IMG/VR virus record: IMGVR_UViG_3300006174_000002
Span: 1-57,675 of that record
Length of the DNA: 57,675 nucleotides
Strand: one strand, 5' to 3'
Source: a virus
Shown here: positions 1,118-56,876 of the stretch, one piece after another
Position numbering within the stretch: position 1 is the first letter of the stretch
Layout of the letters: every line of letters starts with the position of its first letter
Program-made: the position numbers and the translations under genes
The notes under the pieces: model-generated
Seen by the model: the letters and a program-made list of their open reading frames with translations, nothing else
The model's database searches: none
Told to the model about the DNA's origin: nothing

Positions 1118-3898
1118 ATGTCATTACAACCTGAAGTCATCCCCGACATAACGCTGCCGGACGTCGTGCCGCGTCAGTTCGTGCCGAAGCCCGAGGCGTT
1201 TATGCGCGGCATGAAAAAGCTCCCAGCAACCCTCAAGATGCTGGGCTACGCATCCCTGCGCCCCGGCCAGGACACGGCAGTGTTTAACCTGTTCCATTGC
1301 CGTGACACGTTTGCCGTGATCCCCACGGCCCACGGTAAGACGGCCATCAGCGTGGTGCCGGCCGTGTGCATGGATTGGAAGTGTCTCATCTTCAGCCCGC
1401 TGGTCGCGCTGATGCAGGATCAGGTCACTAGCCTCCAGCGTCTCGGACTCTCGGCCGGCGCGGTCAGCAGCGGCCAGACACAGGCTGAGAACATGATGAC
1501 GCTCAAGGCTTGGGAAATGGGAGAACTCCAGTTTTTGCTGGTAGCCCCGGAACGGTTGGAGAACTCAGAGTTTCTCCGAGTCATCAAGTTGGTACGGCCA
1601 AATCTGGTTACCGTAGACGAAGCACACTGCCACGAAGGCTATGTGCGTGTAGCTACTTCTGAAGGTAAGATGCGCATTAAGGATCTGCATGATCTGCGTG
1701 TAGCTGGTAAGCCGTTGCCAAAAGTGCTCAGCATGAGCGCAGAGGGTCACTGCGAATTCAAAAATATCACGAATAGTTGGCAGATGCCGTTTAAGGCACT
1801 GACCAGCATTTACACGGACAGTGGTATGTTGCGGTCTACATCGGATCATCTGTGGTGGACACAGACTGGTTGGAAACGGGCGGATAGCATTATACCAGGT
1901 GTCGACACATTGGTTGGTGTGAATCACGGGACTCGAAGCGTGACGACGCCGAACGCGGACCAACTCCAGTTGCTAATTGGTTCGTTCTTTGGTGACGGCG
2001 GGTTCGGTCGCGCGTCGAAACATAAAACGCATTACCGTTGCAAATACACACACGGAATACAGCAAGCGGACTACTGCAGATGGAAAACCCACTTGCTTGG
2101 TGGTTATTGTGAACGTATTGAACAAAACGGTTATGCCCAGACCCCGGCGCTGATAGGCAGAAGTAAGATGTTCAAGCTGCCTTGGGCACTTAACAAATCG
2201 GACCTGGATGCTGCGTTATTGTCTACGTTTGATTCGAAGGCTTTAGCTGTTTGGATTATGGACGACGGTTCCTTGGCTGGATCGGTAAACAACCCACACA
2301 CGTTGGTCTTGCATACCGAAGATTTCCCAGAGCATTCAGTACTACGACTGTCAGATATGCTCAAATCCAAATACGGCGTGTCCGGCCGAGTGCGCCGTGA
2401 GAAGGAGAAGTATTGGACACTGTGTTTCAAACAGGCTGATGCCTTAGTGCTACTCCGGGCCGCGTCGCCTTATTTTCATGTCAGCATGTTCAAAAAACTG
2501 AAGTGGACATTAGGCGGACAGCACGTTTGGTCGGGATTGCTACAGACGGATGTACATAAAGTGTTGAAGGTGCAAGCCTCGGTTAGACCGCATCGACATA
2601 AAAACCCACATCTGTACGACATTGAGGTGGAGGACAATCATAACCTCTTTGTTCACTCGTCGCATGGTGGTAACACTTCTATGCCGCATGGCACGGCTTT
2701 CCTGACACACAACTGCCTTTCGAACTGGTCAGATTCCTTCCGCCCGTCGTACGTCAAGATCGGCAACCTCATCTCGGCCGTCAACCCAGATGCCGTGTTG
2801 GCCATGACCGCGACGTGTACAAAGGAAATCGACAAGGATGTCCGCTCCGTGCTTGGTATCGTCGGTGCCGCCAAGGTGCTGTACCTGCCGTCACGCAAGG
2901 AGTTGGTACTGAAAAGCGAGAACTACAAGTCAGATCGGCAGGTGCTGAAATACGTCGAGGAATCGACCGGTGCCACGATCGTGTACTGCGCGACTCGGAA
3001 GCGTTGTGAGGAGCTGTTCAACAACCTCGGCAACGCCATCACCGGCGGCAGTCTCGTGTACCACGGTGGTATGCCGTCCGACGCGCGCACGTCGAATCAG
3101 AACCTGTTCATGTCAGGTGACGTGCGGGTCATGTTTGCCACCAATGCGTTCGGCATGGGTATCGACAAACGTGACATCCGAATGATCCTGCACAGGGACG
3201 TGCCGGCATCCATTGAGGCCTATTCCCAGGAGACCGGCCGCGCAGCCCGCGACGGTTTACCGTCTCAGTGTGTGGCACTTGTGGATCCGCAGTCGTTCAG
3301 CACGAATCAGTATCTGCTGGAGTGCTCGCACCCCGAACGTCGTGACGTGGAGCGGGTCTATCATACGTTGGTGAAGCACGCTGACAAGGATCGGAAGATC
3401 ATGAAGACCGGAGCGGATCTGGCGTCCATGATTGGGGTCAAGGAGCAGCAGGTCAGTGCCTCGCTGGGCGTGCTGAAGTCGTCTGGCGTAATTGACCGTG
3501 AGGATGACGAAACCAAACCGGTGACAATCCGATTCGTTAAACCGCCGGATGATGCGAAGTTCGTGAAGCTGCTGGACGACGTCAAGAAGTACGGCATGCT
3601 GCTCCCGGACGGCTCGGTGGACTTGAGCATTGACCTGTTGCTGAAGCAGACTGGGCGCAAGTATGCCACGGTACACAGTCACCTGAAGAAGTTGGATAAG
3701 GACGGGTTTATTGTTTACACCTTGCCGTTCCGTGGTAAAACTACGGTAATGAAGGGTGATTTAAGTCTGGTCGACTTTGAACGTCTGGCCCAACGTAAGC
3801 GCGATGCTTACGCGAAGCTGGACGCCATGCAAGACCTGCTGAATACCCCGGATGAACAGAAGCATGAATTCCTCACTAATTACTTCAGCCACGCCTGA
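1118..3898 (+). CDS. recQ: RecQ-type ATP-dependent DNA helicase interrupted by an intein
   Basis: This is a superfamily 2 3'-5' DNA helicase, expected to unwind forks or recombination intermediates. Visible motifs are LGYASLRPGQ (Q/zero motif), PTAHGKT (Walker A, residues 69-75), SPLVALMQDQV (Ia), DEAHC (Walker B, 167-171), AMTAT (III), GMGIDKRDIR (V) and QETGRAARDG (VI). A winged-helix-like stretch (MIGVKEQQVSASLGVLKSSG) follows the helicase core. The translated product is 926 aa; removing a 362-aa intein (codons 171-532) leaves 564 aa, close to bacterial RecQ. The extein rejoins as DEAH-C-LSNWSDSFRPSY, matching the RecQ DEAHCxSxWGHDFRPxY block, so splicing should restore activity. ATG 1118 lies 5 nt after the previous stop. 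Confidence 0.93.
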   Translation: MSLQPEVIPDITLPDVVPRQFVPKPEAFMRGMKKLPATLKMLGYASLRPGQDTAVFNLFHCRDTFAVIPTAHGKTAISVVPAVCMDWKCLIFSPLVALMQDQVTSLQRLGLSAGAVSSGQTQAENMMTLKAWEMGELQFLLVAPERLENSEFLRVIKLVRPNLVTVDEAHCHEGYVRVATSEGKMRIKDLHDLRVAGKPLPKVLSMSAEGHCEFKNITNSWQMPFKALTSIYTDSGMLRSTSDHLWWTQTGWKRADSIIPGVDTLVGVNHGTRSVTTPNADQLQLLIGSFFGDGGFGRASKHKTHYRCKYTHGIQQADYCRWKTHLLGGYCERIEQNGYAQTPALIGRSKMFKLPWALNKSDLDAALLSTFDSKALAVWIMDDGSLAGSVNNPHTLVLHTEDFPEHSVLRLSDMLKSKYGVSGRVRREKEKYWTLCFKQADALVLLRAASPYFHVSMFKKLKWTLGGQHVWSGLLQTDVHKVLKVQASVRPHRHKNPHLYDIEVEDNHNLFVHSSHGGNTSMPHGTAFLTHNCLSNWSDSFRPSYVKIGNLISAVNPDAVLAMTATCTKEIDKDVRSVLGIVGAAKVLYLPSRKELVLKSENYKSDRQVLKYVEESTGATIVYCATRKRCEELFNNLGNAITGGSLVYHGGMPSDARTSNQNLFMSGDVRVMFATNAFGMGIDKRDIRMILHRDVPASIEAYSQETGRAARDGLPSQCVALVDPQSFSTNQYLLECSHPERRDVERVYHTLVKHADKDRKIMKTGADLASMIGVKEQQVSASLGVLKSSGVIDREDDETKPVTIRFVKPPDDAKFVKLLDDVKKYGMLLPDGSVDLSIDLLLKQTGRKYATVHSHLKKLDKDGFIVYTLPFRGKTTVMKGDLSLVDFERLAQRKRDAYAKLDAMQDLLNTPDEQKHEFLTNYFSHA
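1628..2713 (+). mobile_element. Intein with LAGLIDADG homing endonuclease in RecQ
   Basis: The insert begins with Cys171 (CHEGYVRV, block A) and ends FLTHN followed by Cys533, giving the canonical C...HN/C splicing residues. Block B is the SDHLWW stretch. The two endonuclease signatures are LLIGSFFGDGG (block C) and LAVWIMDDGS (block E), with intact acidic residues. Block F is YDIEVEDNHNLFVHSS. At 362 aa it is a full-length intein, not a mini-intein. It sits between DEAH and the next helicase residue, a position under absolute functional constraint, as is usual for inteins. Confidence 0.93.
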
Positions 3899-6589: not shown

Positions 6590-6597
6590 CAAATCAA

Positions 6598-15855: not shown

Positions 15856-15866
15856 AAACTAGCCCG

Positions 15867-15905
15867 CGCCGGCATGTAAACGGTCAAACGGTTTACATGC
15901 CGGCG
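15867..15905. repeat. 15-bp perfect inverted repeat (hairpin)
   Basis: CGCCGGCATGTAAAC (15867-15881) and GTTTACATGCCGGCG (15891-15905) are exact complements around a 9-nt loop. There is no T tract after it, so it is not a classic intrinsic terminator. It marks the boundary between the HD gene and the AT-rich gap. Confidence 0.85.
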
Positions 15906-16137
15906 GCCGGCGCCGAGACCCAAATAAGGTCAAATGTAGCAAAAACTGTAGTCGGCTCGTGAGACGTTTTTTCGACAACGAAATAATTAACGTTAAATAG
16001 TGTACACAAATTGGACATGACTACAGTTCTGACTACAAGTTTAGTGTACATTTTCTGTAACCTGTAGTATGTGTCGATTTCGCAAGTCGTTGATAATGGT
16101 CCTGTATCCCGTGGCACATTTATACCACACTTTCGTA
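15906..16137. other. AT-rich intergenic region with iteron-like repeats
   Basis: This gap has no credible gene and is clearly AT-richer than its surroundings. It holds a 10-bp inverted repeat AACTGTAGTC (15944-15953) / GACTACAGTT (16019-16028), a third related copy GACTACAAGTT (16031-16041) and a fourth, CTGTAGT, near 16063. TAGTGTACA occurs twice (near 15998 and 16042), and TTAACGTTAA (15987-15996) is a perfect palindrome. This pattern suits a replication origin, an operator cluster or a partition site; sequence alone cannot decide. Confidence 0.55.
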
Positions 16138-16166
16138 TTGACCAGCAAAGGCCTAGCAAATAGGCT
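16138..16166 (+). promoter_or_regulatory. sigma70-like promoter, short leader
   Basis: TTGACC (16138-16143), a 17-bp spacer, then TAGGCT (16161-16166). The ATG at 16176 lies 9 nt after the -10, giving a predicted leader of only about 3 nt. The -10 TAGGCT is identical to those before 37303 and 53862. Confidence 0.6.
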
Positions 16167-17991: not shown

Positions 17992-18232
17992 AGCTGGCTG
18001 CGGAGGCTGCTACGATAATCATGAGCAGACGGAGCCGTCCACATATTGCGATGGTTTCATCAAGGCGGAAACGTTGAAGAACGCCAAGTTGGAATACGAT
18101 GCGCTTGACGCGGTGGCAAAGGCTGCTGCTGCGTTATACGATCCGCGACTTGCTCTGGGTGAGTACTATACGCACAAAACACTGCTTCAGGCTCGGCTGG
18201 CAGAGCTTGCTGCAATTCGAAGTAACGCATGA
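17948..18232 (+). CDS. Hypothetical protein, 94 aa
   Basis: ATG 17948 (MNNSEMHPLQKLLTEAGCGG) is preferred over earlier in-frame starts; it overlaps the previous gene by 44 nt. The C-terminal half is helical. Its TGA overlaps the ATG of the tnpB gene (ATGA). Confidence 0.55.
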   Translation: MNNSEMHPLQKLLTEAGCGGCYDNHEQTEPSTYCDGFIKAETLKNAKLEYDALDAVAKAAAALYDPRLALGEYYTHKTLLQARLAELAAIRSNA

Positions 18233-19350
18233 ACAATTCCAGCGCCGCAATCCCTCACGTTAACGGTGTGTTAGGTGCACCTGTAGAAACTGTGGCTTGC
18301 TGTTTTAAAACTTTGATTTCCGATGAGTTTGCTCATGGTCTTTCAAAGATGGAAATACAATGCCGATCCGCTGTTGAACGTATGCTGCTTGCCCGCAACG
18401 AAACCTCATCTAAATTCTACAAGGAAGTTCCCTGCGTCGTGGCCAAGAGCTTGGTCGCAAAATATCAACGTAACCCGAAATGCAAGTCAGTCAAACGTAT
18501 TGTGATTCCAGTTTGTGGTGACAAAGGGAAGCAGATCAAGCTGGTACCGGGTGGCGTGCGTATTCCAGCATTATTCAAGAAAGCAGTAATTCCAGTGTTC
18601 TGGCCTCGTCCGATAGCGGGTCATGTGCGCAGCGTTGAGATCTTTCAGCGTAGAGGTAGGTGGTTTGCTAACTTCTGTGTCAATGTCGCTACCGCCCCGG
18701 CCGTGAAAGCTACTGGCGTTATCGGCGTCGACCGAAACAGTGTCGGTAACGTAGCAGTCATGGCTGACCCGATGACGGGGCACGTTAGGCACATGGGTTT
18801 CAATCCGGCACGTACAAAGGCATGCTGGCGGAACCGAAAGAAGAATTTGCAGAAACAGGGTAAGCGTCGTCTCCTGTCGAAGCTGAATAAAAACCATGCA
18901 CGACGCTCAACATACCAAAATCACGTTGTCAGCAAGACAGTCGTGGAATACGCCAAAACACATTCTCGTGCTATTGCGTTGGAAAAGTTGTCCGGGGTTA
19001 ATGCCAAAGGCTCAAAGATTCGTTCCTACTCGGAACGTAATCAGTGGGCGTTTGCACAACTCGCCGGCTTCATCCAATACAAGGCACGGCTTGCAGGTGT
19101 AACCGTAGTGGAAGTCGATCCGGCTTATACAAGCCAGACCTGCTCTCGCTGCGGCCATATCCATAAACCGAACGGAAAGTTGTTCAGTTGCCCGGCTTGC
19201 AGACACGAAGACCATCGAGATTCAAACGCGGCGTTCAACATTGGACGTCGAGGACTTGATTGCATCGGTGGATTAGCGACTCACACAGCGCGGAGTCGTT
19301 CGGGTCTAATTGATAGCCCCGCATCTGGGACATTGGAGACTAAAATATGA
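18229..19350 (+). CDS. tnpB: TnpB (IS200/IS605 OrfB-type) RNA-guided nuclease
   Basis: A 373-aa TnpB with an intact RuvC-like triad: Asp168 in GVIGVDRN, Glu252 in ALEKLSG and Asp331 in EDHRDSNAAFNIG. The zinc ribbon between the last two is complete (CSRCGH at 305-308, CPAC at 321-324). TnpB proteins use a right-end-derived omega-RNA to cleave DNA next to a short target motif and so keep their element in place. There is no tnpA, so the element would depend on a transposase elsewhere or be immobile. The gene is ATGA-coupled to neighbours on both sides, unusual for an insertion sequence. The N-terminus does not show the common RYRLYP start, so it is from a divergent group or altered. Confidence 0.9.
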   Translation: MNNSSAAIPHVNGVLGAPVETVACCFKTLISDEFAHGLSKMEIQCRSAVERMLLARNETSSKFYKEVPCVVAKSLVAKYQRNPKCKSVKRIVIPVCGDKGKQIKLVPGGVRIPALFKKAVIPVFWPRPIAGHVRSVEIFQRRGRWFANFCVNVATAPAVKATGVIGVDRNSVGNVAVMADPMTGHVRHMGFNPARTKACWRNRKKNLQKQGKRRLLSKLNKNHARRSTYQNHVVSKTVVEYAKTHSRAIALEKLSGVNAKGSKIRSYSERNQWAFAQLAGFIQYKARLAGVTVVEVDPAYTSQTCSRCGHIHKPNGKLFSCPACRHEDHRDSNAAFNIGRRGLDCIGGLATHTARSRSGLIDSPASGTLETKI

Positions 19351-27190: not shown

Positions 27191-29314
27191 ATGACTGATG
27201 CAAACGAACCGCTCCCGCCACCGGGCGTTGAGCTGACTGACTGGAACGATTTCCCCAAGAAACGCCAGCAAATCTTCGACGGTGTCAAACAAGCCGTCCA
27301 AGAGTCCTTCCCCCAAAGCCAAGGCGGCGTCCGTCTCGAACTCCATAACCTCGGCTACGAGAACGCCAAACCGTTCTCGCTGGCAGAGCAGAAGAAGGCA
27401 CTGATGAGCGATCAGTACCTGCATCACAAGCTGCGCGGTACGCTGAGGCTGATTGACGAGAAGACCGGGGCTGTGCTGGACGAGCAGCATCAGACACTGT
27501 TAAAAACACCTTATTTAACCGAAAGGGGTACGTTTATTTACAACGGCAGCGAACTGTCCACCATATCTCAAGCGAGGCTACAACCTGGCATTTATTCCCG
27601 GCGCAAGGCAAATGGTGAGCTTGAAGCACATTGTTTTCATCATAAAGTAAAAGTTTTAACGTCTGAAGGCTGGTTGCCCATTGGGCAGATAGTCAATCAA
27701 AAGCTCAACGTGGATGTTTACAGTTACGACTTTGTTAACAAATGCTTTGTTCTTAAACCTGTAGTCGGCTGGTTTAAGAACACGATCAAATCTAGGCTGG
27801 GTCGCGCTGATGTCAATTCCGTGGCTCGTTCTCCTGTTAGCTCTGGTAGCTTCAATCCCAGCGCACTCTGGGTTACACCAGAGCATAAAATGTTGACTCT
27901 TGAAGGCAACAAAATTGAAATTCGTTCAGCCCAGTATCTGACTGTTGTAGAAGAAGAGCCTTCGGCAAATCAATGCCAAGTGCTGTACGGTTCGCTGTTG
28001 GGTGATGGCCATATAAGCACTCACAATCTATATGAAGAAGCTCACAGTCTTGATCAAGTGGACTATCTTCAATGGAAACATGACATGTTGGGCGGTTTTG
28101 TCTCGGCTCCGTTAGGGCATAAGCCTGCTAAAGGCAACCGACAGGAGGTTGTGACATTGAGGACTAAGGCTTGTATATTTATGCAAAAGTTACGGTTAAG
28201 CTTTTACCCTAATGGCGTCAAGATAGTACCTCGCGATCTGATTGAGAATTTGACCGCGTTGGGTTTGGCTTGTTGGTATGGCGATGATGGATACGCCATC
28301 AGATCAAAATACAAAGGAAATGTCTCATCGCATCTTTCAGTCCTTTTGTCTACCAACTGCTTCACTCAGGCAGACGTAAACTGGATTATATCTTGGTTTG
28401 AGCGTAAGTGGGGACTTAAGGCATCAAAGCTAAAAAACTCTAAGGACATCGACCGCGATATGGGTTGGGTCGTACGGCTAGGTGGCGCTGATGCTGAACG
28501 ATTTTTAGATATTGTTGCGCCGTACTTGCATCCCTCATTGAAATCGAAGTTGGCACAGCGTGTTCCTATGGGGCGTTGCATACATGGCGACAAAGAAATA
28601 ACTCGTGTGCGCTATGCATGTAATGCCTGTATGGTAACGCGATACGCGAATGGAAAAGCAAAAGCTCGGGAGCGGCAAAATACGCGTAGTCGATTGGGAC
28701 ATACGGCACTCGCGAAAATGATCAAAACCGGCATTATTGTTGAGGACAATAACCTTGGGGCTGCGTGGGATCGTCGAGTTGCTGCACTTGGTACTGCATT
28801 AACAAAGCTACCTGTCGCATCTGGGACTAAGTTGGTTTTGGCATCTATCCCTTGTGTTTACGATACTAATACCGGTACTAAACTATCTAAAACCAATACT
28901 GCATATGATATTGAAGTGGAAGGTACACACAATTACATTGCCAATGGTGTTTTAGTTAGTAATTGCAACGCTAAGCGGGGATCGGGTCAGTCTTTCCGTG
29001 TGAGTCTGGAGCCCGAGTCGGGCCTCTTCAAACTGAACATCGGTCAGTCCAGTCTTCGGCTGTATTCCCTACTGCATGACATCGGTGTGCCGGACGAGCA
29101 GCTGGAGAAAACGTGGGGTAAGGATTTGTTGGCGTCGAACAAGGCGGCGTACGACTCGCGGGTGTTTGACAAGGCGTACAATCGGTTTGTGCGCCGTGCT
29201 GACCCGGCGGCTAGTCGGGAGCAGAAGGCGGAGGCAATCAAGGCGGCGCTGGCTCAGACGTACGTGGATCACGATACGACTCGGAAGACGCTGCCCAATT
29301 TATTTAAAGAATGA
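27191..29314 (+). CDS. rpoB-N: RNA polymerase beta subunit, N-terminal fragment, with intein
   Basis: The 707-aa product carries a 444-aa intein; the extein is 263 aa. The extein TPYLTERGTFIYNGSELSTI and SQARLQPGIYS match the bacterial beta TDNGTFVINGTERVIVSQ...SPGV block. After splicing the protein continues NAKRGSGQSFRVSLEPE, like NARIIPYRGSWLDFEFD. It therefore covers about E. coli beta residues 80-230, then stops. The rest of beta is in the genes at 31714 and 53862. It should assemble with those parts into a phage polymerase. It is the first gene behind a leaderless promoter. The splice sites are H147/C148 and N591/C592. Confidence 0.87.
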   Translation: MTDANEPLPPPGVELTDWNDFPKKRQQIFDGVKQAVQESFPQSQGGVRLELHNLGYENAKPFSLAEQKKALMSDQYLHHKLRGTLRLIDEKTGAVLDEQHQTLLKTPYLTERGTFIYNGSELSTISQARLQPGIYSRRKANGELEAHCFHHKVKVLTSEGWLPIGQIVNQKLNVDVYSYDFVNKCFVLKPVVGWFKNTIKSRLGRADVNSVARSPVSSGSFNPSALWVTPEHKMLTLEGNKIEIRSAQYLTVVEEEPSANQCQVLYGSLLGDGHISTHNLYEEAHSLDQVDYLQWKHDMLGGFVSAPLGHKPAKGNRQEVVTLRTKACIFMQKLRLSFYPNGVKIVPRDLIENLTALGLACWYGDDGYAIRSKYKGNVSSHLSVLLSTNCFTQADVNWIISWFERKWGLKASKLKNSKDIDRDMGWVVRLGGADAERFLDIVAPYLHPSLKSKLAQRVPMGRCIHGDKEITRVRYACNACMVTRYANGKAKARERQNTRSRLGHTALAKMIKTGIIVEDNNLGAAWDRRVAALGTALTKLPVASGTKLVLASIPCVYDTNTGTKLSKTNTAYDIEVEGTHNYIANGVLVSNCNAKRGSGQSFRVSLEPESGLFKLNIGQSSLRLYSLLHDIGVPDEQLEKTWGKDLLASNKAAYDSRVFDKAYNRFVRRADPAASREQKAEAIKAALAQTYVDHDTTRKTLPNLFKE
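27632..28963 (+). mobile_element. Intein with LAGLIDADG endonuclease in the RNAP beta N-terminal fragment
   Basis: Begins with Cys148 (CFHHKVKVLTSEGWLPIGQI), block B is VTPEHKM, and endonuclease blocks are VLYGSLLGDGHIS and LACWYGDDGYAI. Block F is YDIEVEGTHNYIANG. It ends VLVSN then Cys, so the penultimate residue is Ser rather than the usual His. At 444 aa it is longer than typical; between the endonuclease and block F it has CIHG...CNAC (a possible zinc finger) and a basic stretch. The coding style is AT-richer than the extein, suggesting recent arrival. Confidence 0.9.
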
Positions 29315-29318
29315 AGCG

Positions 29319-29465
29319 ATGGCTTTTGCGGTTGTTGGTGAACGGTTTGGAACGCTGGTGTTTTCTGACGCATTGGATGCCGCTAGGCCGGCACCGGTGC
29401 TTCATGGCTACTTGGTCCGAGTCGATCGACTCGCGCTACAATCTCGGCGAATGGACTACGAATGA
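29319..29465 (+). CDS. Small hypothetical protein, 48 aa
   Basis: ATG 29319 (MAFAVVGERFGTLVFSDALD) ends in an ATGA overlap with the next gene. An alternative 52-residue frame starts at ATG 29311 (MKRWLLRLLVNG), overlapping the polymerase stop, and ends 29469. Only one is likely real; the more ordinary composition of this one is preferred. Confidence 0.4.
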   Translation: MAFAVVGERFGTLVFSDALDAARPAPVLHGYLVRVDRLALQSRRMDYE

Positions 29466-29719
29466 GTAAATCCCGTTTCGGACGTTGCCAGGTTTGTGGT
29501 GACATGAACGATCTCAAGCATTTATCCCTTTACGTAATCGGCTCGGAAGGGCTGGACATCTGTCCATCGTGTGAAGTCGTGCTGGTAAATATGGTGCGCG
29601 GGCTAATTGAGGTCGGCAAGCGATGCCGCTTGGGCGGCTATAAGGCTGCCAAAGAAGTGGCTGAAGCGAAGCGTATCCAGGACCTTCGTGAAGCTGCAGC
29701 AATTGAACAACAACAATGA
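29462..29719 (+). CDS. Zinc-ribbon hypothetical protein, 85 aa
   Basis: ATGA-coupled. CQVCGDM and CPSC spaced about 24 residues apart form a probable zinc ribbon; the C-terminal half is a charged helix (KAAKEVAEAKRIQDLREAAA). A small nucleic-acid or protein binding factor is plausible. Confidence 0.6.
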   Translation: MSKSRFGRCQVCGDMNDLKHLSLYVIGSEGLDICPSCEVVLVNMVRGLIEVGKRCRLGGYKAAKEVAEAKRIQDLREAAAIEQQQ

Positions 29720-29973
29720 CTGATCTTACTGTTAAGAATCTCACGGACCTACAAATCTCGATTTCCAGACAGTCCAAGAAGTGGGCTGTATTCGACGGTA
29801 ACTTCGACTGTGTGAAGGACTTCGTTCCGTACACGGACGAACTCACGGCGCTGTCCGAAGCCAAAGCTTGGTGCGCCGAGCGGTCACCACAGGTCCCAGA
29901 AATCGTTTACCCACAGATTACCAAGATGACCGTGTCGTACAGTCAGCAACGCGGTCGGACGAAGCGCAAATGA
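29716..29973 (+). CDS. Small hypothetical protein, 85 aa
   Basis: ATGA-coupled on both sides. A soluble protein (KKWAVFDGNFDCVKDFVPYT) with a basic C-terminal tail. No family recognised. Confidence 0.6.
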   Translation: MTDLTVKNLTDLQISISRQSKKWAVFDGNFDCVKDFVPYTDELTALSEAKAWCAERSPQVPEIVYPQITKMTVSYSQQRGRTKRK

Positions 29974-30257
29974 AACACCGGGATCATCGCTGCCGAATTT
30001 GCGGCGATTGGCTGAATGAGGATCGAGGGTGCGATCGTTGCGCGCAGGGTGTGCTGAAACAGTTCATCCCGCCGGAATGTTACGAGGAGTTGTTAGGGGT
30101 TGGACGCGGGGCAAAGATTATGGGTATCGGCGCAGACAAGCTTACCCGGGAAGACCTGTATGTGGCGCTTGCCATGGTGGGACGATCTATGGATGTGGCC
30201 ACTCTGCGCCGGGATAAGTGCTCTGAGTTTCAAAAGCAAGTGGCCGAGTTGCATTAA
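29970..30257 (+). CDS. Zinc-finger-like hypothetical protein, 95 aa
   Basis: ATGA-coupled start MKHRDHRCRICGDWLNEDRG followed by CDRC gives a CxxC...CxxC zinc-binding module at the N-terminus. The helical remainder ends AELH. It is the last gene before the structured intergenic RNA region. Confidence 0.6.
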   Translation: MKHRDHRCRICGDWLNEDRGCDRCAQGVLKQFIPPECYEELLGVGRGAKIMGIGADKLTREDLYVALAMVGRSMDVATLRRDKCSEFQKQVAELH

Positions 30258-30283
30258 AATATGAAGACAAATCGACTGATAGG

Positions 30284-30685
30284 TACGTGACCTGTGAATC
30301 ACGTAGACCCAGGCGTCCTGCAGGCGACCTGGGTCTTAACCGCAATTCATTGGTTTCCACCAGTGGCTTGCGTTTAAGAAAGGTCCCATGAAGCGAGAAT
30401 AGTACACATACACTAAACCGGGCTGGGCGGACCTGAAACACGGAGCTCAGTGCTGGAATGAACGAATCCTCACCGATCAAAGCGCGAGACAAAGCGCAAA
30501 GCCTAGATGCTGACAATCCCTTAACCGGAAATGAATAAAGCATTCAGGTGCACAAGCACAACGGACGAATGAGTAAATCGTCCGAATAAATATGCTCCGC
30601 CAGGCCAACGGCGCAGTTTGGTCTAGTTTCAAGGGCTTCTAAGAAACAAGCTCTACGCTCCGTGAGGCATTGCTTCACGGAGCTT
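30284..30685 (+). ncRNA. Probable structured non-coding RNA, about 400 nt
   Basis: The 467-nt gap at 30258-30724 has no credible gene, in a genome that leaves almost no gaps. It opens with three abutting hairpins: TACGTGA/TCACGTA (30284-30305), AGACCCAGG/CCTGGGTCT (30305-30336) and a 10-bp stem with one mismatch, TTAACCGCAA/TTGCGTTTAA, with an inner CATTGG/CCAGTG (30336-30377). Later helices include AGGTCC/GGACCT (30380, 30429), GCGC/GCGC, GTGC/GCAC, CGGACGA/TCGTCCG and CGCC/GGCG. It closes with GCTCCGTGA/TCACGGAGC (30657-30683). I see no tRNA, tmRNA or RNase P signature. Boundaries are approximate. It could be a regulatory RNA, a packaging RNA or a leader for the next gene. Confidence 0.6.
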
Positions 30686-30724
30686 CACTTTCCCCGACGG
30701 TTAACCACAAAACACAAAGGAACT

Positions 30725-31165
30725 ATGAACAGAAAATTCGAACAAGCACTCATGTCTGCGATGGAAGAATTGGAGCACACAACTGACCCGGCACATTCTG
30801 ACTGGTCTCCAGTCAATGCGCGTGTGGTGGCTGTCCTGTCAGCGCTGCGTGGTTACCTGACCGAACACGGCACAACCAACGAGCAGGACGACCTGCTACG
30901 CTCCATCGGTCTGCACGAGGACACGGTGAATGAAGTTCAGTTCACGCTCCCCAAGATGCAGGGATTGTTACTTATGAACCTCTTGGACAATCCTGTGTTA
31001 TCGAAGTCGCTCCGCCATGGTTTCGGCATCAAGACGCCGATTGAGGCGTTGAACCATCCGGATGCACGTCTCGGCGGGCCGGTGCCGGCTCGTGCCCACA
31101 GCATGGATGATGGCACAGGCGAACTGGAAGAACCGGCGTGTGCCGAGTGTGGCTGTCGTCACTGA
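30725..31165 (+). CDS. Hypothetical protein, 146 aa, Cys-rich end
   Basis: Has a real Shine-Dalgarno (AAAGGA) within a leader string GTTAACCACAAA...CAAAGG that is also found upstream of 32600. The protein is helical and ends EEPACAECGCRH, a possible metal site. It follows the structured RNA region directly, so its expression could be linked to it. Confidence 0.65.
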   Translation: MNRKFEQALMSAMEELEHTTDPAHSDWSPVNARVVAVLSALRGYLTEHGTTNEQDDLLRSIGLHEDTVNEVQFTLPKMQGLLLMNLLDNPVLSKSLRHGFGIKTPIEALNHPDARLGGPVPARAHSMDDGTGELEEPACAECGCRH

Positions 31166-31169
31166 CAGC

Positions 31170-31198
31170 TTGAATTCCCGGGGGAGCTCTGGCAGAAT
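31170..31198 (+). promoter_or_regulatory. sigma70-like leaderless promoter upstream of 31205
   Basis: TTGAAT (31170-31175), a 17-bp spacer, CAGAAT (31193-31198), then 6 nt and ATG 31205. Same geometry as the promoters at 27156, 37268 and 53827. Confidence 0.65.
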
Positions 31199-31204
31199 GC
31201 GGTC

Positions 31205-31717
31205 ATGTTCACGAAAGAAGAAATCGCGAAAGCGACTCGGATCGCCGAGTACATGACCAAAGCTGCCGAGCTTCCCCTCGGAAAACTCGAAGGAAACCCC
31301 AATCTCTGGTCCGACCCAATGCCCCGCTTTAACGCCCCCAACCCCGCCTTCGCCGGCGCTAAAGCCCCGGAAGGTTTCATGGGTAGCTTGGGTACCATGG
31401 CTAAGGGTATGTACCGTGGCGCTGGCGGATTGGCCGCCGCGACGTTCACCGGGCAAAAGGGCTACCAGGGTGCCGCGGAAGGTTTGGCGTACAACACGGC
31501 GCGTCTCGGCCGCGACATGTTCACGCAAGGCCCTCGCCAAGCGTTTCGGAATGCCGGTAACAATTTCTCTCACGATCTGGCAGCGCCGTACCAACGCGCC
31601 TGGCAGAATTACAAAGATGACGGTGGCGCGCAGCAGGCCGTGGCTCCCGCAGCTTGGGCCGGTCGCCAGTGGAAAGACCTCACCACCGGACCTACCTTGT
31701 GGGGTACCGGCCGATGA
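31205..31717 (+). CDS. Gly/Ala-rich hypothetical protein, 170 aa
   Basis: Starts MFTKEEIAKATRIAEYMTKA, then a Pro/Asn stretch (DPMPRFNAPNPAFAGAKAP) and a Gly-rich weakly hydrophobic segment (GTMAKGMYRGAGGLAAATFT). The C-terminus is Trp/Gly-containing. Composition resembles the virion-associated series at 10.7-13.7 kb. It is ATGA-coupled to the RNAP beta middle fragment and shares its leaderless promoter. Confidence 0.65.
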   Translation: MFTKEEIAKATRIAEYMTKAAELPLGKLEGNPNLWSDPMPRFNAPNPAFAGAKAPEGFMGSLGTMAKGMYRGAGGLAAATFTGQKGYQGAAEGLAYNTARLGRDMFTQGPRQAFRNAGNNFSHDLAAPYQRAWQNYKDDGGAQQAVAPAAWAGRQWKDLTTGPTLWGTGR

Positions 31718-32424
31718 TCACCGCCGCGGACATTCTCAACCAAGCCCGTAAGACCCTCAAGAAGGCGTCTGCCGCCCCCGCAGCGGTGCCGGCTCCCGCT
31801 CCACTCCCTTCCGGCCCTCCGCCTGGCCCCGACGACGTAGCGCTCAGCCCTGACGCACTGGTGTCCATCACAGAGAAGCTGCTTGCCATTAACCGTGGCC
31901 ATGCCGAGCCGGACGAGCGTGATAGCCTTGAACACCGTCGGGTTTACACCCCGGACAAGCTCTTTGCGGAACGCGTACGACTGGACGCCAATAAGCTACG
32001 CCGGGTCATGATGCGTCGAGTCGCCAAGTCACGTAATTTGAAGCCGGTCGGGATTGCCCATTTCGATCCGTACATGGAAGGGTTGCTGATTGGCAATCCG
32101 TTGTCCTCGCCGTTGGAGGAAATCAATCCGTTGCACCTGGTGGAGCAGAATCGTCGGATTACGCAGATGGGTCCGGGCGGGATTCAGTCGGAGGATTCGC
32201 TCACGGATGAGAGCTCGAACGTCCATCCGAGTATTTTTGGATTTCTCTCCCCGATCGAAAGTCCAGAATCGAGCAGAGCCGGCGTAGACACCCGTCTCGC
32301 GTGGGGTGCAAAGATTGGCAGTGACGGTAAGATTTATCAGAAGATGCGGCATCGCAAGTCTGGAACCATCCAGTATGTGAATCCGAATCAAGTGGCAAAC
32401 GCAGTCGTTGGTATCCCCGAATAA
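31714..32424 (+). CDS. rpoB-M: RNA polymerase beta subunit, middle fragment (rifampicin-region homologue)
   Basis: After a Pro/Ala-rich N-terminal 40 residues, DSLEHRRVYTPDKLFAERVR matches the bacterial DHLGNRRVRSVGELxxNQ block. PLSSPLEEINPLHLVEQNRR then ITQMGPGGI align with the rifampicin pocket ([29 protein letters not shown]). SSNVHPSIFGFLSPIESPES aligns with DVHPTHYGRVCPIETPEG. Thus it spans about E. coli beta residues 445-580 only. At the rifampicin contacts the aligned residues differ: Q for H526, T for S531, E for D516. The fragment should pair with the gene products at 27191 and 53862. Confidence 0.88.
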   Translation: MITAADILNQARKTLKKASAAPAAVPAPAPLPSGPPPGPDDVALSPDALVSITEKLLAINRGHAEPDERDSLEHRRVYTPDKLFAERVRLDANKLRRVMMRRVAKSRNLKPVGIAHFDPYMEGLLIGNPLSSPLEEINPLHLVEQNRRITQMGPGGIQSEDSLTDESSNVHPSIFGFLSPIESPESSRAGVDTRLAWGAKIGSDGKIYQKMRHRKSGTIQYVNPNQVANAVVGIPE

Positions 32425-32495: not shown

Positions 32496-32599
32496 CGCAT
32501 TTGGTTCAAATAATTTACCCGTAGTCGGGTTCTCCCTTTCCTCGGCCGTGTGGTCGAAGGAACTCCCAAAGTAGTTAACCACAAACCAAAGGTCTCAGC

Positions 32600-33046
32600 A
32601 TGAAAAAGTTCCTCACATCAGTTGGCGATTTCTTCGCCTACGTCCCGGTGTCCGTCTATAACTGGGTAGTCATCGAACCGAGCGGATCGCAAGTCAAAAC
32701 CCACCTCGGCCGCCAGGAGGTTCAAACCCAAGAAACGCCCGGCGGTCTCGTCATCGCGCTCAAGACCAAAGGCCTTGAGGTCGAAACGCTGGACGCCGCG
32801 AAATGCGTCACGGTTCCCCTGTCCCAGGACGAAGACGTCCGCGGCTTCTTCGTGGCCGGCGTCCAGGCTGGTGTCAACCTCATGTCCATCGAAGCCAACG
32901 CGCTGACCCAGCAGCAGTTCCGTGCCGATCAGCGTGCCCTGCGCACCATCCGCAAAGCCAAGGAGGCGGCGGAGCGCGCCGAGCAGAAAGCGCAAGCTGA
33001 AGCCGCCGGCAATGTGCCGGTTGGCGCGGTTCCGCAAGCAGCCTAA
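32600..33046 (+). CDS. Hypothetical protein, 148 aa, helical Ala-rich tail
   Basis: Has a leader GTTAACCACAAACCAAAGG, shared with the gene at 30725, with AAAGG as ribosome site. The N-terminal half is beta-rich (VYNWVVIEPSGSQVKTHLGR), the C-terminal half a charged helix (RTIRKAKEAAERAEQKAQAE) ending AVPQAA. The 104-nt gap before it holds only short hairpins. A strong leader and Ala tail suggest an abundant protein; function unknown. Confidence 0.65.
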   Translation: MKKFLTSVGDFFAYVPVSVYNWVVIEPSGSQVKTHLGRQEVQTQETPGGLVIALKTKGLEVETLDAAKCVTVPLSQDEDVRGFFVAGVQAGVNLMSIEANALTQQQFRADQRALRTIRKAKEAAERAEQKAQAEAAGNVPVGAVPQAA

Positions 33047-53830: not shown

Positions 53831-53855
53831 TTCCCCGCGGGCATGGTGGTAGGCT
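53827..53855 (+). promoter_or_regulatory. sigma70-like leaderless promoter of the RNAP beta C-terminal gene
   Basis: TTGATT (53827-53832), a 17-bp spacer, TAGGCT (53850-53855), then 6 nt and ATG 53862. Identical geometry to 27156 and 31170. GGTGGTAGGCTTCCACC also forms a short hairpin over the -10 region. Confidence 0.65.
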
Positions 53856-53861
53856 TCCACC

Positions 53862-56800
53862 ATGCCCGCTCCATTACGGCCCGCAATCAAAGACAATCAG
53901 CTGCAGGAAGTGCCCGACTCGGAAGTCGAGTACGAACACCTCTCCCCCAACCAGCACCTCGGCACCCACGCCAACCTGGTTCCACTCCAGTCCGCTGTCT
54001 CCTCTGGCCGTGTGTTCTACGGTGCCCGGTTCGCCAATCAGGCACTGCCCCTGAAGACCCCTGAAGCCCCGCTGGTGCAATTGTTGAGCGATACCGACCC
54101 GGAAGGCCGGTCGTTCGATGAAATCCTTGGCAACGAGGCCGGGAACGTCAGGGCGACCCACGAGGGTAGAGTTCATTCCGTGACGCCCGACGAGATCGTG
54201 GTCAAGACCAAGGACGGCGAAATGGTCAAGCATGACACGTACGAAAATTTTCCATTCAATCGTAAAACGACCTTAACACACATCCCGCTCGTCAAAGCCG
54301 GCGACCCCGTGACGCCCGGACAGCTCCTGGCCCATTCCAACTACACCGACAAGAACGGCACCCTGGCCATGGGCACCAACGCCCGAGTCGGTATCGTCCC
54401 GTACAAAGGCCACTCCATGGACGACGCCATCGTCATCTCCACCAGCATGGCCAAACGCTTCACCGCCAACAATCTCTACGGTCACGACCTCTCATACAAA
54501 CGGGGGGTCAAGGGCGGCAAGGCGCATTACACTGGGCTGTTCACCCACAAATTCGTGAATGAGCAGCTGGACAAGCTGGACGACGACGGGGTGGTGAAGG
54601 TGGGACAGGTATTGAAGCAGGGCGATCCGTTAATCTTGGCGACTCGGCCCCGGGTGGTTAGCTCGACGACGGCGCAATTGGGTCAGCTCTCCAAGCACAT
54701 GAAGAACGCACGGAATGATGCCTCTGTGCTCTGGGATCACGAAACACCTGGTACGGTGCTGGACGTGCATCGGACGCGCTCTGGGGTCAAGGTGAACGTC
54801 AGCAGCGATGCCCCCGCGGAAGTGGGCGACAAGATCGTAGGTCGATCCGGGGCCAAGGCCACTGTGTCGACCATCGTCCCGGACGAGCACATGCCGCGTA
54901 CCGTGGATGGTAAGCCGTTGGAGATTTTACTCAATCCTCAGAGTTTGGTGTCCCGTATGAATCCGTCGCTGGCCTATGAGATTATGCTCGGCAAGGTGGC
55001 TCGGAAGACAGGCAAGACCTATAAGCTACCCTCGGTGCTGCCGAAGGGTCAGGCTTGGTATGACTTTGTGAAGGGCGAGTTGGACAAGGCGGGCGTCTCG
55101 GACAAAGAGGAAGTGTTCGATCCGTTGCTGAATCGGAAGCTGGAAAACCCAATCACGGTTGGTGATATGCATTGGCTCAAGCTCCATCACTCCTCGGAGA
55201 GCAAAGTGAGCTCGCGCGGTACTGGGAGTTACAACGCGGATCAGCAACCAAGCCATGGTGGTGGTGACATGGCTCAATCGAAGCGCATGTCTGGGTTGGA
55301 CAGCAATGCCCTGATGTCCTCCGGCGCGTACAACCTGCTCAGAGAGGGTGCGACGCTAAGGGGTACTAAGTGTTTCGACGTGCAGACGGAAGTACTGACG
55401 CGACGCGGCTGGTTGTTTTGGAAGGATGTTACGGGGTCAGATGAACTATACACGCAGGATGGTTCAGGTCGTGGTTTTTTCGAAGTGCCACAACTCCTGC
55501 ATAGGTACCAGTACACAGGTGACATGTATGGTTTTGAGGGTCGCTTCTTAGATTGGCTAGTCACGCCTGACCATAAACTTTGGATGCAGCACATCAAAGC
55601 TACCAAGGGTCCGAAGATGCGGTTCAAAACAGCAAAAGAACTACATGGTAGAACTTTCTATATCCCGCAATTCGGCTCAGTGTATCCCGGCACATTGTCT
55701 GATGATTATCGTGTGCCGATTGTCAGTCAACCTGGTTGGCGTTCAAAGGGGTTTTCAATACCAATTCACGATTATTGCGAGTTGCTTGGCTGGTGGCTAA
55801 GCGAGGGTTGTTCTATGATAGATACGGATGCAGGAAAACGTGGTTATACTCAAATATCACAATCAGAATCTGCTAATCCGAAAAAACTTGAAACTATTAT
55901 ATCGTTGGTTGAACGAATTGGTCTAAAATATAATCATTTGCGATGTGGTGGTTACTCCAGGGGTATTCGTATTCGCAATAAACCACTGGCAGCACATCTG
56001 CGTCAATATGGGACTGGCGCTGCAAATAAGCGTATTCTACCCATTATTTTTGAAGCCCCTCTTGCTGCGCGTTTGAAGTTAATTGATGCTTATATTTTAG
56101 GTGATGGTCACACGCATGTGCATAACAACACGACTAGCCGAAGGGCCAGTAGCGTATCGCGCGGGTTATTGGACGATATGCAACGGTTGGCTGTTTTATC
56201 AGGTAATGGCGGCATCATTTCGCTGATCGACAGATCGCGGGTCACAACCTCTGCATTGAGAGACGGTAGACCGCTTAACTGCCTACCTATATGGTACATC
56301 GGTTTTGCAGATAATCGGCGTAACGCCACGGTGGATGGGTGGCATCCTTCACCGAATATGAGGCATGCATATATCGAACACTATGACGGTACGGTCTACT
56401 GCGCGACCATGTCTACCGGATTGCTATACGTACGACGCAACGGCAAACCTATGTGGTCTGGAAATTGTGACAATTATTGGCGAGAGCTGCGCCAGGGGCA
56501 TGAACCCAAGGAACCCGGAACGCCTTTCATCTGGGAGAAGTTCAAAGCGTTGCTGCAGGGTGCTGGGTATCACGCTCGCCGGCTGGGCAACGGCAAGGAG
56601 CGGTTGCAGTTCCTTACGGAAAAGGACCTTGAGAAGCATAAGCCGATTCGGGTGCGTACGGGTGATCTGGTGGACATGAACGATCTGAGCCCGGTTAAGG
56701 GCGGTTTGTTCGACCCAGCGCTTACGGGTGCTGGGGCATGGGGTTTCGTACAATTACCTCATTCCATTCCAAATCCAGCGGCCCAGGACGTTGTCTGCAA

Positions 56801-56876
56801 GCTTCTCGGTTTGACAGAACGGCAATATCGCGCGGTGCTCGCTGGCGAAGAAGACATGCCGGATAACTCGAAGTAA
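53862..56876 (+). CDS. rpoB-C: RNA polymerase beta C-terminal part joined to beta' start, with intein
   Basis: The 1004-aa product has a 365-aa intein (codons 504-868); the extein is 639 aa. It matches beta from about E. coli residue 650: SPNQHLGTHANLVPLQSA, then HSMDDAIVIS (metal-site acids 187-188), VGDKIVGRSGAKATVSTI (active-site Lys324 and Lys332, like K1065 and K1073), and SLVSRMNPS (R365, like R1106). Then HWLKLHHSSESKVSSRGTGS and the intein inside NLLREGATLRGTK-CDNYW. After beta, the tail LSPVKGGLFDPALTGAGAWG and FVQLPHSIPNP matches the beta' N-terminus (DGLFC...GHIELASP) without the usual zinc finger. The rest of beta' must lie beyond the window. Catalytic residues are kept, so a functional polymerase is likely. 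Confidence 0.88.
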   Translation: MPAPLRPAIKDNQLQEVPDSEVEYEHLSPNQHLGTHANLVPLQSAVSSGRVFYGARFANQALPLKTPEAPLVQLLSDTDPEGRSFDEILGNEAGNVRATHEGRVHSVTPDEIVVKTKDGEMVKHDTYENFPFNRKTTLTHIPLVKAGDPVTPGQLLAHSNYTDKNGTLAMGTNARVGIVPYKGHSMDDAIVISTSMAKRFTANNLYGHDLSYKRGVKGGKAHYTGLFTHKFVNEQLDKLDDDGVVKVGQVLKQGDPLILATRPRVVSSTTAQLGQLSKHMKNARNDASVLWDHETPGTVLDVHRTRSGVKVNVSSDAPAEVGDKIVGRSGAKATVSTIVPDEHMPRTVDGKPLEILLNPQSLVSRMNPSLAYEIMLGKVARKTGKTYKLPSVLPKGQAWYDFVKGELDKAGVSDKEEVFDPLLNRKLENPITVGDMHWLKLHHSSESKVSSRGTGSYNADQQPSHGGGDMAQSKRMSGLDSNALMSSGAYNLLREGATLRGTKCFDVQTEVLTRRGWLFWKDVTGSDELYTQDGSGRGFFEVPQLLHRYQYTGDMYGFEGRFLDWLVTPDHKLWMQHIKATKGPKMRFKTAKELHGRTFYIPQFGSVYPGTLSDDYRVPIVSQPGWRSKGFSIPIHDYCELLGWWLSEGCSMIDTDAGKRGYTQISQSESANPKKLETIISLVERIGLKYNHLRCGGYSRGIRIRNKPLAAHLRQYGTGAANKRILPIIFEAPLAARLKLIDAYILGDGHTHVHNNTTSRRASSVSRGLLDDMQRLAVLSGNGGIISLIDRSRVTTSALRDGRPLNCLPIWYIGFADNRRNATVDGWHPSPNMRHAYIEHYDGTVYCATMSTGLLYVRRNGKPMWSGNCDNYWRELRQGHEPKEPGTPFIWEKFKALLQGAGYHARRLGNGKERLQFLTEKDLEKHKPIRVRTGDLVDMNDLSPVKGGLFDPALTGAGAWGFVQLPHSIPNPAAQDVVCKLLGLTERQYRAVLAGEEDMPDNSK
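55371..56465 (+). mobile_element. Intein with LAGLIDADG endonuclease in the RNAP beta C-terminal fragment
   Basis: Begins with Cys504 (CFDVQTEVLTRRGWLFWKDV), block B is WLVTPDHKLWM, the endonuclease blocks are LLGWWLSEGC and LIDAYILGDGHTH, and the end is VYCATMSTGLLYVRRNGKPM then WSGN before Cys869. The penultimate Gly, in the NGKPxWxGN ending, is typical of a class of phage inteins. Codon use is clearly AT-richer than the extein on both sides, a sign of recent acquisition. Confidence 0.92.

Follow-up and report, generated by a model that had tools for sequence, protein, structure and literature searches.

A candidate structured RNA of about 400 nucleotides in a gene-free gap between split RNA polymerase genes of a phage

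Main finding

On the plus strand of a 57,675-base IMG/VR virus record, which was analysed in full and is here called the window, the stretch at positions 30284-30685 does not code for protein, and its predicted fold is exceptional. That it represents a structured RNA, whether a molecule standing alone or an element acting in cis, we regard as likely (about two in three). Our preferred reading, at a rough probability of 0.4, is a lineage-specific, stand-alone or processed phage RNA of ~400 nt that is made from the plus strand and binds a protein or an RNA partner. An earlier note on this DNA had proposed a structured RNA of this size, and the proposal holds insofar as the region is non-coding, is strongly and strand-asymmetrically structured, and could be assigned to no Rfam, tRNA or tmRNA family. 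Its transcription, its separateness from mRNAs and its binding of a partner are inferred.

Genomic setting

Gene content places the window among phages that have their own RNA polymerase beta subunit, with Salmonella phage Arash and Vibrio phage D181 as distant kin by their genes. Across the clade (L180-L210, as well as L173:14501-16755 in a rabbit-gut contig), beta is divided into separate N, M, and C genes, which in the window occupy 27191-32424 and 53862-56876. Here, beta N (27191-29314, with an intein) and beta M (31714-32424) flank the candidate RNA, which thus lies between polymerase fragments as the earlier note had it, and beta C (53862-56876) also contains an intein. When IMG/VR was searched with a beta C alignment, 80 loci were returned, and of the 49 records searched, nearly all had the M part inside one long frame of 1100 aa or more. 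A GTDB scan gave one rabbit-gut contig with a split beta, and an M alignment from this contig brought up 31 loci in IMG/VR that belong to the split-beta clade, with identities in M of up to 61%. An intron that would unite beta N with beta M was considered and set aside, as N and M are separate genes in the clade records and in the rabbit-gut contig, and the ATG of beta M overlaps the stop codon of the preceding gene (31714-31717).

The interval between N and M measures from 0 to ~2.5 kb in relatives and holds changing small genes (in L180, for instance, one ORF is Nudix-like), and a similar structured gap is absent from it in every clade member examined. Because its length and small-gene content change in this way, the interval is a place of variable cargo in the clade, and the candidate RNA is therefore probably lineage-specific cargo. 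By the same token, since the interval varies among relatives and no such RNA was found in theirs, the location between polymerase fragments looks incidental.

Elsewhere in the window there are intein-like insertions in a helicase gene (1118-3898) as well as in beta N and beta C, a LAGLIDADG domain being matched in the first two, and there is a TnpB-like gene at 18229-19350, which together make many mobile elements for a single record. A perfect 13-bp hairpin at 53837-53869 has the beta C start codon (53862) within its 3' arm and possibly masks beta C translation. Another gap, at 15856-16166, contains inverted repeats and repeated ACTGTAGTC/GACTACAGT words and is perhaps a replication or control site.

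The gene-free gap

The gap extends from a stop codon at 30257 to an ATG at 30725, which is preceded by AAAGGAACT, and it lies between two plus-strand genes. In the ORF maps and codon scores, no gene-free stretch of the record is longer than 30258-30724, in agreement with the earlier note, and 30265-30661 is the only plus-strand stretch longer than 204 nt that lacks an ORF of at least 45 aa. Minus-strand ORFs do overlap the gap (e.g., 118 aa at 30187-30543). The codon score, however, is below zero in each of the six frames (-0.04 to -0.11 per codon), as it is for these minus-strand ORFs, whereas neighbouring genes, small ones included, score from +0.05 to +0.23 per codon, and so we consider the gap non-coding. 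A short ORF at 30458-30538 (MNESSPIK...TGNE) was rejected as a tmRNA tag, as the tRNA-like domain is absent. Searches for relatives of the small genes flanking the gap found none, and this includes the 146-aa product of the downstream plus-strand gene (30725-31165).

Between the fold and this downstream gene is a plus-strand 12-mer, GTTAACCACAAA (30700-30711), of which there are exactly two copies in the window, the first being 25 nt before the ATG at 30725 and the second (32574-32585) 26 nt before an ATG at 32600. Judged by this placement, it is possibly a phage promoter or a leader of the downstream gene, in which case the structured RNA would lie upstream of the start of the downstream gene's transcript. 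As the downstream gene thus seems to have a leader or promoter motif of its own, its 5' UTR need not include the structured part. A scan for sigma-70 promoters found none, and since this phage has its own polymerase, its promoters may differ from the sigma-70 type.

Predicted fold

The 5' part of the region is predicted to form three plus-strand hairpins with 0 nt between their arms, just as the earlier note had described. These are P1 (30284-30305; 7 bp with an 8-nt loop, recovered by inverted-repeat search, mean pair probability 0.87), P2 (30306-30335; 8 + 4 bp with a 5-nt loop, 0.96 and 0.91), and P3 (30336-30377; 4 + 5 + 8 bp with a 4-nt loop, 0.62, 0.83, and 0.94). They are followed on the same strand by a branched central domain (30389-30631) with A-rich unpaired joints, which is closed by stacked long-range helices at 30389-30394/30626-30631 (pair probability 0.86), 30417-30425/30614-30622 (0.82), 30432-30435/30601-30604 (0.97), and 30441-30446/30594-30599 (1.00). 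Within this domain, the plus strand is predicted to form a hairpin GCGC-GAGACAAA-GCGC (30482-30497; probability 1.00), a two-part stem GCCT-A-GATGCT / AGCATT-C-AGGT (30501-30549; 0.73-0.91), and a hairpin of 7 bp with a 9-nt loop (30562-30584; 0.97). The further predicted helices number more than the five that had been put forward as a minimum. Moreover, the core fold is also predicted across 20 to 45 °C and is mostly retained at 55 °C.

A strong final hairpin, also claimed before, is indeed predicted on the plus strand at 30657-30683, though its stem has 12 bp and not 9 bp; it has a 3-nt loop and the tail TTCACTTTCC. Because this U run is weaker than those of the record's clear terminators at 6596, 37760, 43057, and 56891, we take the hairpin more readily for a structural or processing end than for an ordinary terminator.

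Folding statistics and base composition

For 30284-30685, the plus strand has a predicted folding energy of -149.1 kcal/mol, which corresponds to z = -5.9 relative to 200 dinucleotide shuffles (the best of them at -131.9), and the minus strand has a z of -4.4. Taken alone, the first 100 nt have a z of -6.0 and the core (30389-30631) one of -3.2, with all 287 windows of the record averaging -0.8 (sd 1.4). The z-score by itself is not decisive, since 400-nt windows elsewhere in the record reach -5.4 and the value depends on the boundaries, being only -2.6 and -3.0 for windows placed over the region on a fixed 200-nt grid.

By chance, runs of three or more abutting hairpins, each of at least 7 bp, are rare: they appeared in 5 of 1500 shuffles, and among 854 sliding windows there were 7 with such a run, perhaps including windows that overlap the region itself. 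Unpaired plus-strand positions are A-rich and G-poor, A making up 51% of unpaired versus 16% of paired bases; the difference of 0.34 exceeds that in every one of ~60 control windows (mean 0.20, sd 0.05, maximum 0.29). Such A-rich unpaired bases are the pattern expected of functional structured RNAs. Taken together, the abutting hairpins, the unpaired-A excess, and the temperature-robust, high-probability helices are three further signs that point to a real RNA.

Comparison with known RNAs

Rfam was searched over the whole record with no family reaching its gathering threshold, and at E ≤ 10 the gap alone gave only a chance snoRNA fragment on the minus strand; the Infernal/Rfam check that had been proposed thus ended without a family. 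At neither threshold was there a match to the GOLLD, ROOL, or RNase P models, and no match was found to the group I intron model RF00028 (P3-P8 core, G-binding P7) even at E ≤ 10, to known riboswitch or leader families at E ≤ 10, to the small self-cleaving ribozyme models of Rfam, or to HEARO. ARAGORN found no tRNA or tmRNA anywhere in the 57.7-kb record, which together with the Rfam result upholds the statement that the region has no tRNA, tmRNA, or RNase P signature. As positive controls, the same Rfam search recovered the rabbit-gut relative's group I intron and, in other relatives, a twister-P5 ribozyme and a tRNA, and it is therefore able to recognise such RNAs in these phages.

Several structured elements were seen in the relatives themselves. 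The group I intron of the rabbit-gut relative (L173:5801-6058, 69.4 bits) lies between two short ORFs, and at L175:714-1014 this relative has two near-identical hairpins (GGGCAGCCATGC...GCATGGCTGCCC) on either side of another, in a gap with z = -8. Relative G010 has a structured leader that recurs ahead of several small genes (L116:8369-11097), with a twister-P5 match at L116:9504-9568 (38.1 bits, just above the cut-off). Relative G001 (L105-L115) has 38 predicted tRNA genes, versus none in the window.

In kind, the candidate comes closest to GOLLD and ROOL, large ornate RNAs of phages and prophages (PMC12286853), though by the tests made it is a member of neither. Like them, it would be a large, branched, non-coding RNA in a phage genome without known partner or function (PMC12286853), its branching here being that of a predicted fold. 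In contrast, the candidate has no Rfam match at E ≤ 10 and no known homologues, and it is about half as long as stated for GOLLD, where many members run to more than 800 nt (PMC12286853). Moreover, GOLLD is often near phage tRNA genes, whereas here there is no tRNA island. Group I introns are similar in size and present in this phage group, but the candidate lacks an RF00028 match and is not inside a recognisable split gene. The leaders and twister-P5 match of G010 are likewise structured intergenic RNA candidates in a related phage, yet those leaders differ in sequence and are repeated before several genes, whereas the candidate is a single copy in its record. As for the OmegaRNAs of IscB/TnpB (HEARO and relatives), the window does hold a TnpB-like gene, but this is 11 kb away, and the candidate has neither an adjoining nuclease gene nor a HEARO match.

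Homologue searches

Homologues were sought in the 31 split-beta clade records, the rabbit-gut relative, and ~50 more distant records. No homologue of the structured region was found by blastn against phages and plasmids, or by nhmmer and blastn against all retrieved loci, and a DNA search of 49 + 30 whole records gave no copy (a self-match served as positive control). Covariance models built from the one sequence, R1 (243-nt core) and R2 (99 nt, three hairpins), likewise found no copy, both being run over the loci and R1 also over whole records. Four exact seeds had few matches in IMG/VR, all with unrelated flanks. Absence here is not proof of uniqueness, because a single-sequence covariance model is not very sensitive and the collections leave out records very near the window.

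Four apparent counterparts were set aside. An R2 match at L180:7249 (14.4 bits) is due to chance and falls inside a 203-aa ORF, structure in the syntenic stretch L180:4881-5356 is unremarkable (z = -2.0), L173:3143-3581 is coding (165-aa ORF), and the strongly folding gaps in G010 are terminators and repeated leaders of other sequence.

Weighing the alternatives

The stand-alone RNA is favoured by the plus- over minus-strand z, the non-coding frames, the A excess, the abutting hairpins, and helix probabilities of 0.8-1.0; against it are that neither a homologue nor, in the sigma-70 scan, a promoter was found, that the 3' hairpin is no strong terminator, and that some windows elsewhere in the record fold almost as well. 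The main rival, which we hold less probable, is that the fold is an intercistronic element in a polycistronic mRNA, where it would control processing, stability, or translation of neighbours (the genes from 30725 onward, or the 3' end of the mRNA ending at 30257) with no separate RNA being made. A position between two plus-strand genes would suit this, as would the repeated structured leaders of G010, one with its twister-P5 match, and the long helices, such helices being good RNase III substrates. However, the fold is large for a simple leader, with its 400 nt and its long-range internal architecture, the apparent separate leader motif at 30700-30711 intervenes between fold and gene, and no known riboswitch or leader family matched.

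We judge it improbable that the region is a DNA-level element, such as a replication or packaging site, or a neutral hairpin-rich spacer, in either case with no RNA function. Inverted repeats are symmetric in DNA, and the minus strand does fold well too, but the plus-strand advantage and the A-rich, G-poor unpaired positions point to RNA, and long-range nested architecture is not typical of replication or packaging sites. Quite improbable, finally, is a mobile element that has worn out or diverged, such as a degenerate intron or the end of a transposon, and of which inverted repeats remain. The N-M interval as a cargo hotspot, the inteins and TnpB-like gene of the record, and the intron of the rabbit-gut relative all lend it something; nevertheless, no intron model of group I or II in Rfam was matched at E ≤ 10, although the same tool scored the relative's intron at 69 bits, the overlapping start of beta M indicates a beta split into genes rather than interrupted by an intron, and no nuclease gene adjoins.

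If the stand-alone reading is right, the RNA would be transcribed within the rightward gene cluster or from a promoter of its own, and would fold into the three abutting 5' hairpins, the A-rich branched core with its long-range helices, and the 3' hairpin, which may mark or protect the RNA end. The folded RNA would then work by binding a partner, either a protein or another RNA.

Meaning for these phages

Few large structured RNAs are known from phages, and for most of them the function is obscure. It is rather doubtful, although conceivable, that the candidate represents a new class of large, intricate phage RNA, carried as cargo between split polymerase genes and with close relatives outside the searched collections. 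At present, it is one sequence without evolutionary support, and its value is that of a candidate. If real, it would come from a little-studied clade of phages that have a split multi-subunit RNA polymerase of their own, and would suggest that a variable spot of those genomes carries RNA cargo.
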